From: Candidatus Poribacteria bacterium | GTDB taxonomy: Bacteria; Poribacteria; WGA-4E; WGA-3G | Direction of reading: 5' to 3' | NCBI GenBank assembly: GCA_022824265.1 | Contig: JAJEAG010000055.1 | Location: 124,001-188,000 of the forward strand | Length of the DNA: 64,000 bases | In this document: positions 34,853-50,600 of the stretch, one piece after another | Position numbering within the stretch: the first letter of the stretch is position 1 | Layout: each line of letters begins with the position of its first letter | Notes under the pieces: model-generated | Databases searched by the model: none | What the model was told of the DNA's origin: nothing | The model's input: the letters and a program-made list of their open reading frames with translations, nothing else | Made by a program: the position numbers and the translations under genes

Positions 34853-35458
34853 ATGATTTCATTTTATAAGATAAAACCAAAGTTTCAGCAATTAGTGAAA
34901 CCACTACTAAATATGTTTTATAAAGCAGGTTTTACTGCGAACGGTATTACATGGATGGCGATATTACTGTCTTTCACGATTGGTATTCTGTTCTGGTATT
35001 TTCCCAATGGTCACATGCTTTGGATTTTCCCTATTGCACTATTACTAAGAATGACATTGAATGCTCTTGATGGTATGATGGCAAAAACCTATAATATGAC
35101 AAGTAAAGCAGGAGAAATACTGAATGAACTTGGGGACGTTGTTTCGGATGCAGTCCTATATTTGCCATTAGTAAAACTGGCAGGTGTGAATTTTCGGTGG
35201 GTGCTGTTGTTTATTTTCCTTTCAATGCTCAATGAATATATAGGGGTATTAACAAAAGCTGCAACTGGGACAAGAAGATACGATGGACCAATGGGGAAAA
35301 GTGATAGAGCATTCGTTTTGGGATTAACCTGTTTACTGTTTTACTTTTTCCCCACGATATATGCAGCCTTTGATTATATTTTTCTGGGGATGAGTGTTCT
35401 GCTGCTGTTGAGTTCTGCAATACGAATCAAAAATGGTTTGACCCAAGCGGAGAGTTGA
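34853..35458 (+). CDS. CDP-alcohol phosphatidyltransferase family protein with altered active site
   Basis: The 201-residue protein has six predicted membrane segments. Its CDP-alcohol phosphotransferase motif lies at residues 70-95 (NALDGMMAK, then GEILNELGD). Against DxxDGxxAR-x8-GxxxDxxxD it has Asn at two aspartate positions (N70, N91) and Lys at the Arg position (K78), while D73 and D95 remain. Typical members join CDP-diacylglycerol to an alcohol such as glycerol-phosphate or inositol-phosphate. The replaced ligands suggest altered chemistry. AGGAAGGA lies upstream, and a CdsA-like gene starts 2 nt after the stop. This pairing resembles E. coli ynbA-ynbB. Confidence 0.8.
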   Translation: MISFYKIKPKFQQLVKPLLNMFYKAGFTANGITWMAILLSFTIGILFWYFPNGHMLWIFPIALLLRMTLNALDGMMAKTYNMTSKAGEILNELGDVVSDAVLYLPLVKLAGVNFRWVLLFIFLSMLNEYIGVLTKAATGTRRYDGPMGKSDRAFVLGLTCLLFYFFPTIYAAFDYIFLGMSVLLLLSSAIRIKNGLTQAES

Positions 35459-44784: not shown

Positions 44785-45477
44785 TTATGATGCTTTCATC
44801 CATTCGTGGATTTCCCATCCTGATTCAAGGGCATGGTCTCGTAGTCCTTTGGACGGATTTACTGCAATGGGATTTCCAACACTTTCCAACATTTCCAGAT
44901 CGGATTTGCTATCACTGTAGGCATAGCAGATGTCAAGTGGTATATCTTCTTGTTCGGCAAACTTTTTCATTGCAATCGCCTTCTGTTCGCCAATAAGCGG
45001 TTCAGTCGTTAGTCTACCTGTAAAGATACCGTCTTGTTCTTTCAATTCAGGTGCTATAACCGAATCTGCTCCGAGGAATTCAGCGATCGGTTGAACAATA
45101 AAGTTAAGAGATCCCGTTAACAGAACAACTTGATCACCTTGTGCTTTATGTTCCTCTATTTGCGAAATAGCTTCAGGGAATATCTTCTGGCGGAGATAAC
45201 TTGCGAACATATCTACTGCTAATGCTTTTAATGCTGTTGCATCCTTACCACGATAATTCCGGTAGAACACCCGATTAAACTGTGGTCTGCTAATCCGATC
45301 AAGAATTAAATAAAATACGACCTTCGGTAGAAAACCGATGAACCAGAAAAATCTGATAATGCGAGGCAACGATGAAGTCTGTAACCAGATGTACGCATGC
45401 ACAATGGTCGTACTTACTAATGTGCCATCCACATCAAAGAACGCAATAGGTTTTTTCTGTAGCGATTCCAATTTCAA
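44785..45477 (-). CDS. HAD-IB family phosphatase
   Basis: This 230-residue protein has DxDGT (FFDVDGTLVSTT, residues about 14-25) and LLTGSLNFIVQPIAE. YSDSKSDLEML and the lysine in GEQKAIAMKK complete the HAD-IB subfamily pattern related to phosphoserine phosphatase and CicA/SerB-like enzymes. It starts at TTG only 2 nt after the giant fusion gene ends, so translation is probably coupled. Such HAD enzymes can dephosphorylate phosphatidic or acylglycerol-phosphate intermediates. That suits a lipid pathway, but this is inference. Confidence 0.82.
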   Translation of the reverse strand: MKLESLQKKPIAFFDVDGTLVSTTIVHAYIWLQTSSLPRIIRFFWFIGFLPKVVFYLILDRISRPQFNRVFYRNYRGKDATALKALAVDMFASYLRQKIFPEAISQIEEHKAQGDQVVLLTGSLNFIVQPIAEFLGADSVIAPELKEQDGIFTGRLTTEPLIGEQKAIAMKKFAEQEDIPLDICYAYSDSKSDLEMLESVGNPIAVNPSKGLRDHALESGWEIHEWMKAS

Positions 45478-45479
45478 TC

Positions 45480-48400
45480 CTAACTCAATGTCTCAGCGAG
45501 TTCTGCAACACGGTTTTCAAGTTCAGTCAAAAATTTCTGGTATATCTCTGTATTTTCCGTAATGTCCTCTGGGTTTTGTGAACCTTCAAAAAGAAGCGGT
45601 TCCCCAAAAACGATCTGAATCGGATGTTTTTTTGGTAAGTTTTGCCCTTTAGGAAGAACCTGAAATGTGCCTTTAATATATGTCGGTATAATGGGGACCT
45701 GCTGTCCATAAATCAGAAGGCTGAGAATACCTTGTTTGAATGGCTGCAATTTTCCATCAAGTGAACGTGTGCCTTCTGGAAAAATGAGCAATCCATTGTT
45801 CTGTTCCATTACCTCGTTAGCCATGCGTAAATCCTGTAGAAACTGACCGAAATTTCCGTCGCGTTCAATCGGTAGTGCATTCAAACAATTGTGTGCGAAC
45901 CATCCCTGCAGCCGATTGCCGAACCAGTAATCTCGTGCGGCGAGTGTCCACAGTTGATGTGAATTCTGTCCAAGTGCTGTAATCACTGTAAGCGTATCTA
46001 AATGGCTTGTGTGATTCGGTGTAATAATGAAAGGTTTCCCTTGTGGTATGTTTTCAAGACCAAAACACTCAAAGGAGAAACGAGATTTATATATACTTCG
46101 GATACTGGCACGAAACGCTCGCGCATACCAATACGGTTTTTGGCGTAACTTCACAGATTTTGATGGTGTATCTGTTGTTTGTATAGTATCTGTTTTGTCA
46201 AAAGTCTGCGTTAATTCCACAACATCGTTGACTGTCTGCAAATTCGCAACCATAGCCTCAGGAATAGTATTACCGAGTCGTGATTCGAGGAGCATAAGTA
46301 GGTCAAGTCTCGTGAGTGAATCCAGTCCGAGATCTGTATCCAAACGACTTTCGCCGCCGATCTTATTCGCTGGCATCCGCGCTAATTTGGCAAGGGGTGC
46401 CAGAATCTCTTCAGGAATGTTGTCGGATTGATTGCTTTGTTCTTGATCGGTTTCATCTATAGCTGCAGCTTGCTCGTTTGCTAGATGTTGTTCTAACAGT
46501 GCCTTTACACGTTCCCTATCAATTGCCCCATTTTCTGTTTTTGGTAATGCGTCCTGAAATAAATGCGATTTGTGGAATTGCTGGTAACTTGGGAGTTGTT
46601 TTGCCGTTTGCTGTAGATGATTGTATATATCCGCTTTTGTTCCCTCTCTGTTATCAGTTGGTACAATCACTGCGTGGACACCTGTGTCCGATCCATCTTC
46701 GTAGGGTAGACCAACAACACATATTTCAGAGATAATTGAAGGTGCCTGATAAAGTGCCTCCAATTCCACAGGGTAAATGTTCTTACCAGATGCAGGAACG
46801 ATAATGTCTTTACAATGTCCAGCAATATATAGATAGCCATCATCATCAATATACCCGAGATCCCCCGTGTAAAGCCATCCGTCACGTATAGCATTCTCGG
46901 TTGCACTTTGATTCTGATAATACGCTTTCATATTACTGGGACCTTTTGCTATGATCTCACCGATACCTTCGCTATTGGGATTGTCAATCTTAAATTCAAC
47001 GCCTTCAACAGCAGGACCGACAGATCCACACTTGCTATTTAGATAGGGATTGACACTAAGAACAGGTGCGGTTTCGGTCATGCCATATCCTTGATAAATT
47101 GTCAAACCGAGTTTTTGGAAACCATCATAAATTGCATCGGTAAGGGAAGCACCACCACTAACAAGAACGCGAATGTGTCCTCCCATAACAGCTTGTGCCT
47201 TTTCGGCTAAGGTTTCTCCGGGTGTGTCCTCCCGCGATGCTTGACGTTCAATCGTGGTTTGAAGCATCTGATAAAGTCGCGGCACACTGATAAAAGCTGT
47301 GGTCTTATCCTCACGCATCGTTTTTAGAAGTGTCGTTGGTCGAAACGCATTGACATAAGTTGCGGTGGTCCCACTGTAAAGTGCCATCAGCAGACTACAT
47401 GAAAAACTCAGGGCATGGTAAAGCGGCAGTGCTGACAAAATCCGTTCCTCATCTGTCGGTGGCAATGCCTTTGCAACTGCCTTAACGTTTGAGATAAAAC
47501 CTCCATGTGTTAGCATCGCGCCTTTCGCATCTACTGTAGTCCCCATAGTAAATATAATGGAAGCGACTGTATCGGGTGTAACCTCTACGTCCGGAAAATT
47601 TGTTGGAATGTCTTCATCCGTATTCACTATTTCGTTGAAATGATTGATGTTCTGAATGAGTATATTTTGTTCAGTCAACTGTGCGCTTGAATTGGCTAAA
47701 ACTGCATCGGATGCTAAGATTGCTTTAGCAGTAGTGAACTCAGTAATGGCTAATATTTCTCGTATAGGCGTTTGTGCATCAAGTGGGACAACTGCACAAC
47801 CGATTTGTGATGCGGCAAGGTATGCGATGCACCATTCAGGTTGGTTTTCTGAGACCAATACAATTCTATCGTCTTTTCGTAGACCACTTTTCCACAATTG
47901 GTACGCGATTCGTCGCGAATGTGTGTAGGTTTCAGCATAAGTATAACGTTCCCATTCATTGTCGTTTACCATCTGAAGTGCAATTTTATCAGGAATACGT
48001 TTTGCTTGTATCTCTATTAAATCTACGATTGTTCGTGGTGAGATATTATCAATAGGGTTTGGGGCAGGCGCAGGTAATTCATCAGCTTCATCTTGTGAAG
48101 ATGTTTTATCTTCCTTTGATGAGTCTGAAGTATCATCTTCCAGTTTAAGCACATGTCGCTTGATACCAGGAATGTGTATTTCTTGAAAATACTGCTTCCA
48201 AGATATTAGCGAAACATCGAAATTAAAGTTCTGTTGTTCTTCGGATGAGAGTGCATTGTAAAGTTCCTGCAACTTGTTAGTTTCAAATTCAAAGTTAGTG
48301 CGGGTATAAGGCGCGTAAATCTGAATGTAATGCAAAGCTGCCTTAATGCTGCTCTGTTTTATAAATAGTCTGCGACGTTTTCGTTTCGCTGATTTGAACG

Positions 48401-49736
48401 GTAGTAGTGTAAGTGCTTTAATTGCGGTATCAAGCAAACGCATCTTGCCATCTAACTTCTTTTTGAATTCCTCTAAACTCGGATATGTCCAAACTGGAAC
48501 AGAGATCGGTTTTCCGTTTTCCATCATCGGATTTTCAACAAAATAACCGTAGGTTGCTTCAACAATACCACGGAAGTAAAGAGGATTATGTGTTCCTGTT
48601 GCAACGTGATACACCTCTATTCCACCGCGTTTTGCAATTGCCTCTGCGGCTGCTAACATTGCATTCACAACAAAATCCACTGGAATAATATCCAAAATAA
48701 TGTCTGGGTCAGCAGGAAAATCTGGGAGTCGTCCTTTCGCAAAACCAACGATCAACGGTTCAGACATCCTATACTTTCCGAGCCATCCTGGATGCGGTTC
48801 AGCAATACTGCTTTCAATAATTGACGGACGAACAATCGCAGTAGGAAGGTCACCGCGCAGTTCCATAATTACTTGTTCAGCAAGGAACTTCATATAGGTG
48901 TAAGTATCGTTCCATCCGCGTACGCGTGCGTGTTCAAGTCCTGCTTCAACAAGCTGTTCTTCAAGCCAATCTGTTTTTGCTTGTTCAACAAGGGTCTCTA
49001 TGTTTTTACGACTACCACGTTTGTCTGCTTTTATTTGTTTCTGTGCTATCTCTTGGAAATGTGCGATCTGTTCGGGAGTTTCAGCTTCATCTCGGATAGA
49101 CTGGTTCAGCGTAAGCAGATAATCAATCTCTTCTGATAACGTTGAAGGTATTTTCGTTTCGCTTTTCTCGTTTTGTTGTTGTGCGTATTGTTCGTAAGGC
49201 GGATGAAGTTCTTCTGGTACAGTTCCCGGATTATCACCGCAGACATAAGCCGTTGAGACATGAAGAAAGATAGCATTGGAGCATCCCTTAGCGAACGTGA
49301 CAACATGTTTCGCGGCGAGAGCGTTACCCTTCAGAGAAGCGTCAAAGGGAGGATCAAACTGAACGAGACCCGCTATATTAATGAATACGTCTACTTCACT
49401 TTGTAGACGTTGATAGTCTTCATCATTGAAGCCGAGTCGTTCATCCGTCAATTCTCCTTCAACAGGTGCGACTTTTTCCTTAACCCACACTTCAAACTGT
49501 TCACCGTGTATCTGTCGTAACGCATCAAAGACATCGGAGGTTAGCAGTTCTTTTTCAAAACGTTCTTGTGCAGAGGTGACTTTTCCATTTGATTCAACCC
49601 GACTTCTAATAAGGAGATATATTTTTTGGACATCCGGGAGAGTGGTTAAAATCTTAGCAACCATCGGTTGTCCGAGGAAGGCAGTACCGCCAGTAATAAG
49701 TAAAACCTTCCCGTGAAAAAAATCGGTTATTGACAT
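45480..49736 (-). CDS. Four-domain fusion: fatty acyl reductase - AMP-dependent acyl ligase - acyl carrier protein - PlsC acyltransferase
   Basis: This is a 1418-residue multidomain protein. Residues 1-510 form an NAD(P)-binding fatty acyl-CoA/thioester reductase (TGGTAFLG 15-22; YTYMK 279-283). Residues about 565-1090 are an adenylate-forming ligase: the P-loop-like TMGTTVDAKG at 730-739, GYGMTETAP at 883-891, YTGDLGYIDDDG at 956-967 and K1066 in PKTENG. Residues about 1108-1180 are an acyl carrier protein with the phosphopantetheine serine S1140 in LGLDSL. Residues about 1205-1418 are a PlsC-type acyltransferase (NHTSHLD 1241-1247, FPEGTRS 1319-1325). The set resembles the multifunctional ElbD protein of myxobacterial ether-lipid synthesis. 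The HAD phosphatase next door completes a plausible lipid-assembly unit. Confidence 0.85.
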   Translation of the reverse strand: MSITDFFHGKVLLITGGTAFLGQPMVAKILTTLPDVQKIYLLIRSRVESNGKVTSAQERFEKELLTSDVFDALRQIHGEQFEVWVKEKVAPVEGELTDERLGFNDEDYQRLQSEVDVFINIAGLVQFDPPFDASLKGNALAAKHVVTFAKGCSNAIFLHVSTAYVCGDNPGTVPEELHPPYEQYAQQQNEKSETKIPSTLSEEIDYLLTLNQSIRDEAETPEQIAHFQEIAQKQIKADKRGSRKNIETLVEQAKTDWLEEQLVEAGLEHARVRGWNDTYTYMKFLAEQVIMELRGDLPTAIVRPSIIESSIAEPHPGWLGKYRMSEPLIVGFAKGRLPDFPADPDIILDIIPVDFVVNAMLAAAEAIAKRGGIEVYHVATGTHNPLYFRGIVEATYGYFVENPMMENGKPISVPVWTYPSLEEFKKKLDGKMRLLDTAIKALTLLPFKSAKRKRRRLFIKQSSIKAALHYIQIYAPYTRTNFEFETNKLQELYNALSSEEQQNFNFDVSLISWKQYFQEIHIPGIKRHVLKLEDDTSDSSKEDKTSSQDEADELPAPAPNPIDNISPRTIVDLIEIQAKRIPDKIALQMVNDNEWERYTYAETYTHSRRIAYQLWKSGLRKDDRIVLVSENQPEWCIAYLAASQIGCAVVPLDAQTPIREILAITEFTTAKAILASDAVLANSSAQLTEQNILIQNINHFNEIVNTDEDIPTNFPDVEVTPDTVASIIFTMGTTVDAKGAMLTHGGFISNVKAVAKALPPTDEERILSALPLYHALSFSCSLLMALYSGTTATYVNAFRPTTLLKTMREDKTTAFISVPRLYQMLQTTIERQASREDTPGETLAEKAQAVMGGHIRVLVSGGASLTDAIYDGFQKLGLTIYQGYGMTETAPVLSVNPYLNSKCGSVGPAVEGVEFKIDNPNSEGIGEIIAKGPSNMKAYYQNQSATENAIRDGWLYTGDLGYIDDDGYLYIAGHCKDIIVPASGKNIYPVELEALYQAPSIISEICVVGLPYEDGSDTGVHAVIVPTDNREGTKADIYNHLQQTAKQLPSYQQFHKSHLFQDALPKTENGAIDRERVKALLEQHLANEQAAAIDETDQEQSNQSDNIPEEILAPLAKLARMPANKIGGESRLDTDLGLDSLTRLDLLMLLESRLGNTIPEAMVANLQTVNDVVELTQTFDKTDTIQTTDTPSKSVKLRQKPYWYARAFRASIRSIYKSRFSFECFGLENIPQGKPFIITPNHTSHLDTLTVITALGQNSHQLWTLAARDYWFGNRLQGWFAHNCLNALPIERDGNFGQFLQDLRMANEVMEQNNGLLIFPEGTRSLDGKLQPFKQGILSLLIYGQQVPIIPTYIKGTFQVLPKGQNLPKKHPIQIVFGEPLLFEGSQNPEDITENTEIYQKFLTELENRVAELAETLS

Positions 49737-49991: not shown

Positions 49992-50600
49992 ATGGCACAC
50001 ACATTACCAGCACTCTCTTATGCACACAACGCTTTGGAACCTCATATTGATGCACAAACGATGGAAATCCATCACGGTAAACACCATCAAGGTTACGTAA
50101 ACAACCTAAATGCAGCATTAGAAGGTCATGACGACCTCGCTAAATTAAGTGTTGAAGAACTTCTCAGTAACATTGATCAAGTACCGGAAGACATCCGTCA
50201 AGCTGTCATTAACAACGGTGGTGGTCATGCAAACCATTCACTTTTCTGGTCAATTATGGCTCCCGGTGGTGGAGACCCCAGTAGTGGTGAAGTCGGAGAA
50301 GCGATAAAATCTGCCTTCGGTTCTCTTGAAGCTGCGGATGAAGAATTTTCTACTGCTGCCGCCAAACGTTTCGGTTCTGGTTGGGCATGGCTTGTTATCG
50401 GTGATAACGGGTTGGAGATTTATTCCACAGCAAATCAGGATAGTCCAATTATGCAGGGACATACACCTATTCTCGGTATTGATGTCTGGGAACATGCATA
50501 CTATCTGAATTATCAGAACCGTCGTCCGGATTACGTTGCCGCGTGGAAAAATGTCATCAACTGGAAAAAGGTCAACGAACTTTATCTGGCAAATGCCTAA
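49992..50600 (+). CDS. sodA: Manganese/iron superoxide dismutase
   Basis: The 202-residue enzyme has all four metal ligands: H27 in EIHHGKHH, H82 in HANHSLFW, D164 and H168 in [17 protein letters not shown] and NQDSP favour the manganese or cambialistic type. It converts superoxide to H2O2 and O2 in the cytoplasm. AGGAGG precedes the ATG. A terminator hairpin follows the stop. Confidence 0.95.

Follow-up and report, generated by a model that had tools for sequence, protein, structure and literature searches.

An ElbD-type multidomain enzyme and its adjoining HAD phosphatase as a candidate entry point to glycerolipid synthesis in Candidatus Poribacteria

Across Candidatus Poribacteria, the multidomain enzyme ElbD and the acylation enzymes PlsX and PlsY exclude each other, and this exclusion is the new observation reported here. 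A mutually exclusive distribution across the phylum points to a role for ElbD in core membrane-lipid synthesis. On comparative sequence evidence, ElbD and the HAD phosphatase encoded beside it probably form a unit (at a rough probability of 0.55) that serves as the entry point of poribacterial glycerolipid synthesis in place of PlsX/PlsY and also supplies fatty alcohol for ether lipids. The elbD-HAD locus analyzed lies in a 64,000-nucleotide stretch of DNA (the window) from a metagenome-assembled genome (MAG) of Candidatus Poribacteria, a sponge-symbiont bacterium. A literature search found no paper linking Poribacteria with PlsX, and a prior report is still possible.

The elbD gene (45480..49736, reverse strand) is an open reading frame of 1418 amino acids whose assignment as an ElbD-type multidomain enzyme rests on Pfam searches and an alignment of homologues. 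The reductase (48144..49697, reverse strand) combines NAD_binding_4 (residues 14-360, E = 2e-61) and Sterile (residues 464-531, E = 2e-14) domains, carries S161 and a Y279xxxK283 motif, and has as its best solved relative 7eoz, a "fatty acyl-CoA reductase" (E = 2e-82). An AMP-forming acyl ligase follows (46527..48014, reverse strand; residues 575-1070), made up of AMP-binding (575-940, E = 2e-72) and AMP-binding_C (991-1070) regions and matching both acyl-CoA and acyl-ACP synthetases. The acyl carrier domain (46215..46406, reverse strand; PP-binding, residues 1111-1174) holds a GLDS1140L motif, with the codon of the phosphopantetheine serine, Ser1140, at 46317-46319. The chain ends in an acyltransferase of the PlsC/GPAT fold (45672..46070, reverse strand; residues 1223-1355, E = 3e-22), recognizable by its HX4D motif (H1242TSHLD1247) and by FPEGTRS, the FPEGTR of which stands at residue 1319.

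The phosphatase gene (44785..45477, reverse strand) encodes a HAD-IB protein of 230 amino acids from a TTG start. A two-base spacer (GA) separates the last base of the TAG stop codon of elbD, at 45480, from the TTG start at 45477. The phosphatase matches PF12710 (1e-37) and NCBIfam TIGR01490 (157 bits against a cut-off of 98), has weak similarity to TIGR01545 (phosphatidylglycerophosphatase C), and its predicted model adopts the fold of phosphoserine phosphatases. The preliminary description had read four catalytic or carrier modules with recognizable key motifs on one polypeptide, a phosphatase gene two bases downstream, and a likeness to ElbD; Pfam finds the modules in the order reductase, ligase, carrier, acyltransferase, and the four-domain enzyme with its HAD partner is confirmed in full. 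The two genes are surrounded in the window by metG, an exonuclease-like gene, sod, and a TPR gene. The superoxide dismutase-like gene (49992-50600) lies upstream of elbD, but in the related loci L009, L010, and L017-L019 it is found on the downstream side of the exonuclease-like gene. Scans for promoters and terminators produced matches no more often than in shuffled sequences.

Both genes are under evident constraint. In a conservation set of 76 homologues, the close ones being Candidatus Poribacteria MAGs, no core catalytic position of the reductase, carrier, or acyltransferase varies, and the motifs of the ligase vary rarely if at all (A3 threonines kept in 70-75 of 76, A10 lysine in 74 of 76). 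The HAD aspartates are retained in every alignable sequence. Values of dN/dS are close to 0.08 in ElbD and 0.13 in the phosphatase; such low values in both genes indicate strong purifying selection and argue against chance open reading frames. The coupling is conserved as well, since the HAD gene adjoins elbD in 73 of the 76 loci, the exceptions being two loci of family f3 and one that ends at a contig edge. Across the poribacterial families f1, f2, f4, and f5, the HAD gene is the sole neighbor retained.

The exclusion was counted over the 77 Poribacteria genomes, all MAGs, common to the ElbD, PlsX (PF02504), and PlsY (PF02660) searches. ElbD occurs in 68 of the 77, and neither PlsX nor PlsY occurs in any of these 68; the nine ElbD-free genomes divide into six with both PlsX and PlsY and three with neither (Fisher P = 3.5e-7, uncorrected for shared ancestry). 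PF02504 and PF02660 are both absent from the window's genome in a profile search that was positive in E. coli and seven other controls. The three genomes with neither system are 90% (G008), 88% (G069), and 61% (G081) complete. G008 was considered as an ElbD-free counterexample and set aside: its contig C6 starts 652 bases ahead of a gene whose counterpart in the related locus L019 adjoins the phosphatidyltransferase, CdsA, and elbD genes. The contig thus stops where elbD should come next, and a gap in the assembly is the most likely place for the gene. In five poribacterial families almost all genomes carry ElbD. Because it follows family boundaries, the 68 genomes are not 68 independent cases, and as few as one or two switches during evolution may account for the pattern.

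Which enzyme performs the first acylation when PlsX and PlsY are absent can be narrowed by elimination. The window's genome encodes three PF01553 acyltransferases, namely ElbD, a 217-residue PlsC encoded after cmk, and a 405-residue protein (AT405), with no other PF01553-type candidate found there. ElbD genomes and a PlsXY genome, G082, both keep the cmk-plsC pair, which suggests that the two groups share the second-step enzyme and differ in the first step. AT405, which lies beside cupin-like and sugar-isomerase-like genes, is intact in the window's genome (contig C42 of G000; L165 826-2043) and in most of its relatives. Enzymes of the PlsC/GPAT-type fold are able to switch between acylation steps. 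A reading in which AT405 or the stand-alone PlsC performs the first acylation and ElbD serves an ether branch only would draw on this flexibility and on the distribution of AT405, which is found in most ElbD genomes and in none of the PlsXY genomes, and only in families without PlsX/PlsY. Against it, PlsC also occurs in PlsXY genomes, where it is necessarily the second-step enzyme, and AT405 is missing or truncated in several ElbD genomes. It was not found in five ElbD genomes of 90-95% completeness (G068, G070, G071, G072, and G079), in two of which, G072 and G079, PlsC and ElbD are the only PF01553 acyltransferases found. In G023 (L201), G026 (L203), and G041 (L202) it is cut down in its syntenic place with the catalytic region gone, and G028 (L204) keeps only a fragment, again with no catalytic region; all four remnant genomes belong to genus g2. 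These losses and truncations led us to reject AT405 as the sole first acyltransferase, and the reading as a whole is quite unlikely. With AT405 patchy and decayed, PlsC assigned to the second step, and PlsX/PlsY absent, ElbD is the most constant candidate for first acylation.

The acyltransferase domain itself gives a reason for caution, since by sequence and by fold it is closest to PlsC 5kym, an sn-2 enzyme, which counts against a first-step role. The sequence match is to Thermotoga PlsC, and the predicted fold ranks 5kym first, followed by human GPAT1 (8e4y) and plant GPAT (1iuq). This ranking of PlsC and then GPAT allows a first-step role for the predicted domain and does not prove it.

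The principal competitor to an entry-point role is a specialized cluster, in which alkyl or vinyl ether lipids would be made as signals or in defense beside an ordinary phospholipid pathway with an unrecognized first enzyme. One report files sponge-symbiont clusters in this way (PMC9426513), and ElbD of Myxococcus xanthus is dispensable for growth and required for ether lipids (PMC9131029). A specialized cluster sits poorly with the distribution of ElbD in five families, which is not patchy, and with its exclusivity with PlsX/PlsY; moreover, the window's genome offers no PF01553-type protein beyond PlsC and AT405 to act as the unrecognized enzyme. The specialized cluster is unlikely, and less likely still is a pathway to neutral lipids or wax-like fatty-alcohol esters in which the phosphatase would yield diacylglycerol or alkyl-acylglycerol. 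The reductase belongs to a family that gives fatty alcohol and HAD-IB proteins include lipid phosphatases, with the weak TIGR01545 similarity in keeping, but neutral lipids would leave the loss of PlsX and PlsY unexplained and are very improbable. The preliminary description had suggested that the genes may make "an unusual ether or neutral lipid in this organism," a reading that stands in part. The enzyme is not an oddity of one organism, given the homologues reported earlier (PMC9426513) and its presence in nearly all close relatives, and the ElbD vs PlsX/PlsY exclusion makes "ether or neutral lipid" probably too narrow a product scope.

In the proposed entry-point role, the ligase would adenylate a fatty acid and load it onto the carrier in cis, as the literature reports for M. 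xanthus ElbD. By elimination, the acyltransferase would then use this chain to acylate glycerol-3-phosphate or DHAP, as PlsX/PlsY does elsewhere. The reductase may convert part of the carrier-bound acyl groups to fatty alcohol destined for an ether-linked chain. Stand-alone PlsC would then attach the second chain, with CdsA-type enzymes acting next. The phosphatase would dephosphorylate an intermediate of the lipid pathway, for instance lyso-PA, PGP, or PIP.

Possible partners for the later steps lie outside the elbD-HAD operon. A CDP-alcohol phosphatidyltransferase (34853..35458, forward strand) and a CdsA-like phosphatidate cytidylyltransferase (PF01148; 35455..36417, forward strand) form a pair about 8 kb from elbD-HAD in the window and close beside it in L019 and L023, a location in keeping with the entry-point role. 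The phosphatidyltransferase scores best, below cut-off, with archaetidylinositol and phosphatidylinositol phosphate synthases; this affinity makes an inositol lipid phosphate a possible substrate for the phosphatase.

The ether-forming step was sought in the window's genome. Alkyldihydroxyacetonephosphate synthase (AGPS) was rejected as the partner because all four FAD-oxidase_C proteins are other enzymes: GlcD, a D-lactate dehydrogenase (473 bits for that assignment vs 105-114 for AGPS), a fused FAD/Fe-S dehydrogenase, and GlcE. PlsA/Ger (PF09989) has no match in this genome, with four controls positive. CarF/PEDS1 (PF10520) likewise has none, but it also has none in the control genomes.

The architecture of the unit varies among the families. 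Family f5, which belongs to the same class, has one gene for the reductase and another for the ligase-carrier-acyltransferase portion, and both share an apparent operon with the HAD gene. The two portions are fused in f1-f4, and in part of genus g2 they are split again at the linker. This renewed split between reductase and ligase is seen in L029, L034, L040, L048, L053, L055, L057, L059, and L061, where the two reading frames stand 3 to about 215 bases apart; L040 comes from a single-contig assembly. The ElbD tree tracks the family labels, and the fused or split state needs three changes on it; this was a quick tree with a midpoint root, and long branches were flagged. A zinc alcohol dehydrogenase (PF08240) and a LarA-like protein (PF09861) are encoded beside elbD-HAD in three f5 loci (L104 12072-14918, L105, and L106) and in G060 of family f4 (L114 416-3282), and a dehydrogenase related to the PF08240 protein lies about 8 kb from elbD in G010 (L213 10477-11703). 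This pair was rejected as a conserved elbD partner, being absent from the 64-kb window and from most loci.

A stronger version of the proposal holds that ElbD-HAD has displaced PlsX/PlsY in most Poribacteria and is their sole means of starting membrane glycerolipid synthesis. It would then be a third route in bacteria, next to PlsB and PlsX/PlsY, and the membranes of these symbionts would consist largely of alkyl-ether lipids made by an AGPS-free pathway. This version is tentative, and its odds fall somewhat short of even. Work on ElbD has so far treated it as an ether-lipid enzyme that is dispensable, and in sponges it has been listed among natural-product genes. As a gateway to membrane lipids it would add a route to lysophosphatidic acid or an alkyl analogue in a sponge-symbiont group, and its reductase and acyltransferase activities would become testable by complementation. 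A gateway role would also give a genetic basis for asking whether Poribacteria are the source of sponge ether lipids.

ElbD-like proteins have been met before in several settings. For Poribacteria, an elbD homologue is on record (Lorenzen 2014, as cited in PMC9426513), and ElbD is widespread in other phyla (PMC11868695). Sponge poribacterial and acidobacterial "VEPE-like" cluster families include, in Poribacteria MAGs, an elbD homologue with the same four domains and flanking hydrolase genes; they are filed there as specialized metabolism, and the portion of the text available does not contain the PlsX/PlsY exclusion, the cross-family HAD pairing, or the split relatives (PMC9426513). Aas, the acyl-ACP synthetase/2-acylglycerophosphoethanolamine acyltransferase, resembles ElbD in that a single polypeptide combines ligase and PlsC-type acyltransferase and the acyl group passes via a carrier protein. 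In the poribacterial ElbD, by contrast, the domain order is reversed, the carrier is built in, and a reductase is added; against the Aas model NF006386 it scores 185 bits, far below the cut-off of 1221. A plasmid collection yielded only partial-length relatives and no complete ElbD homologue. Among them, ligase-ACP-PlsC proteins of Ilyobacter, Fusobacterium, and Rubrobacter are 27-30% identical from ligase to acyltransferase; they lack the reductase domain, and no HAD gene is annotated beside the Ilyobacter and Rubrobacter copies.

The closest comparison is with ElbD of M. xanthus (Q1DC43/ABF88003.1), encoded in the elbA-E operon (Lorenzen et al. 2014; reviewed in PMC9131029). By domain set and order, judged against the published description, the poribacterial protein is of ElbD architecture: both run reductase, acyl-CoA synthetase, carrier, acyltransferase, and the M. 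xanthus operon likewise includes a HAD phosphohydrolase gene, elbB (PMC9131029). Ligase and carrier activity of M. xanthus ElbD was shown in vitro and ether lipids are strongly reduced in mutants, whereas acyltransferase activity and an alcohol product of the reductase were undetected with the purified enzyme (PMC9131029). These two negative results, like the viability of elbD mutants, weigh against the entry-point role. The NAD-dependent epimerase genes elbA/E lie beside elbD in M. xanthus and not beside elbD in the window; their adjacency is a feature of that operon and not of the ElbD protein family. M. xanthus also has an AGPS homologue and CarF, whereas the FAD-oxidase_C proteins of the window's genome are not AGPS. 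Its elbD mutants are viable (PMC9131029) and PlsX is annotated in the myxobacterium M. stipitatus (PMC8561891), so the absence of PlsX/PlsY from ElbD-bearing genomes sets Poribacteria apart.
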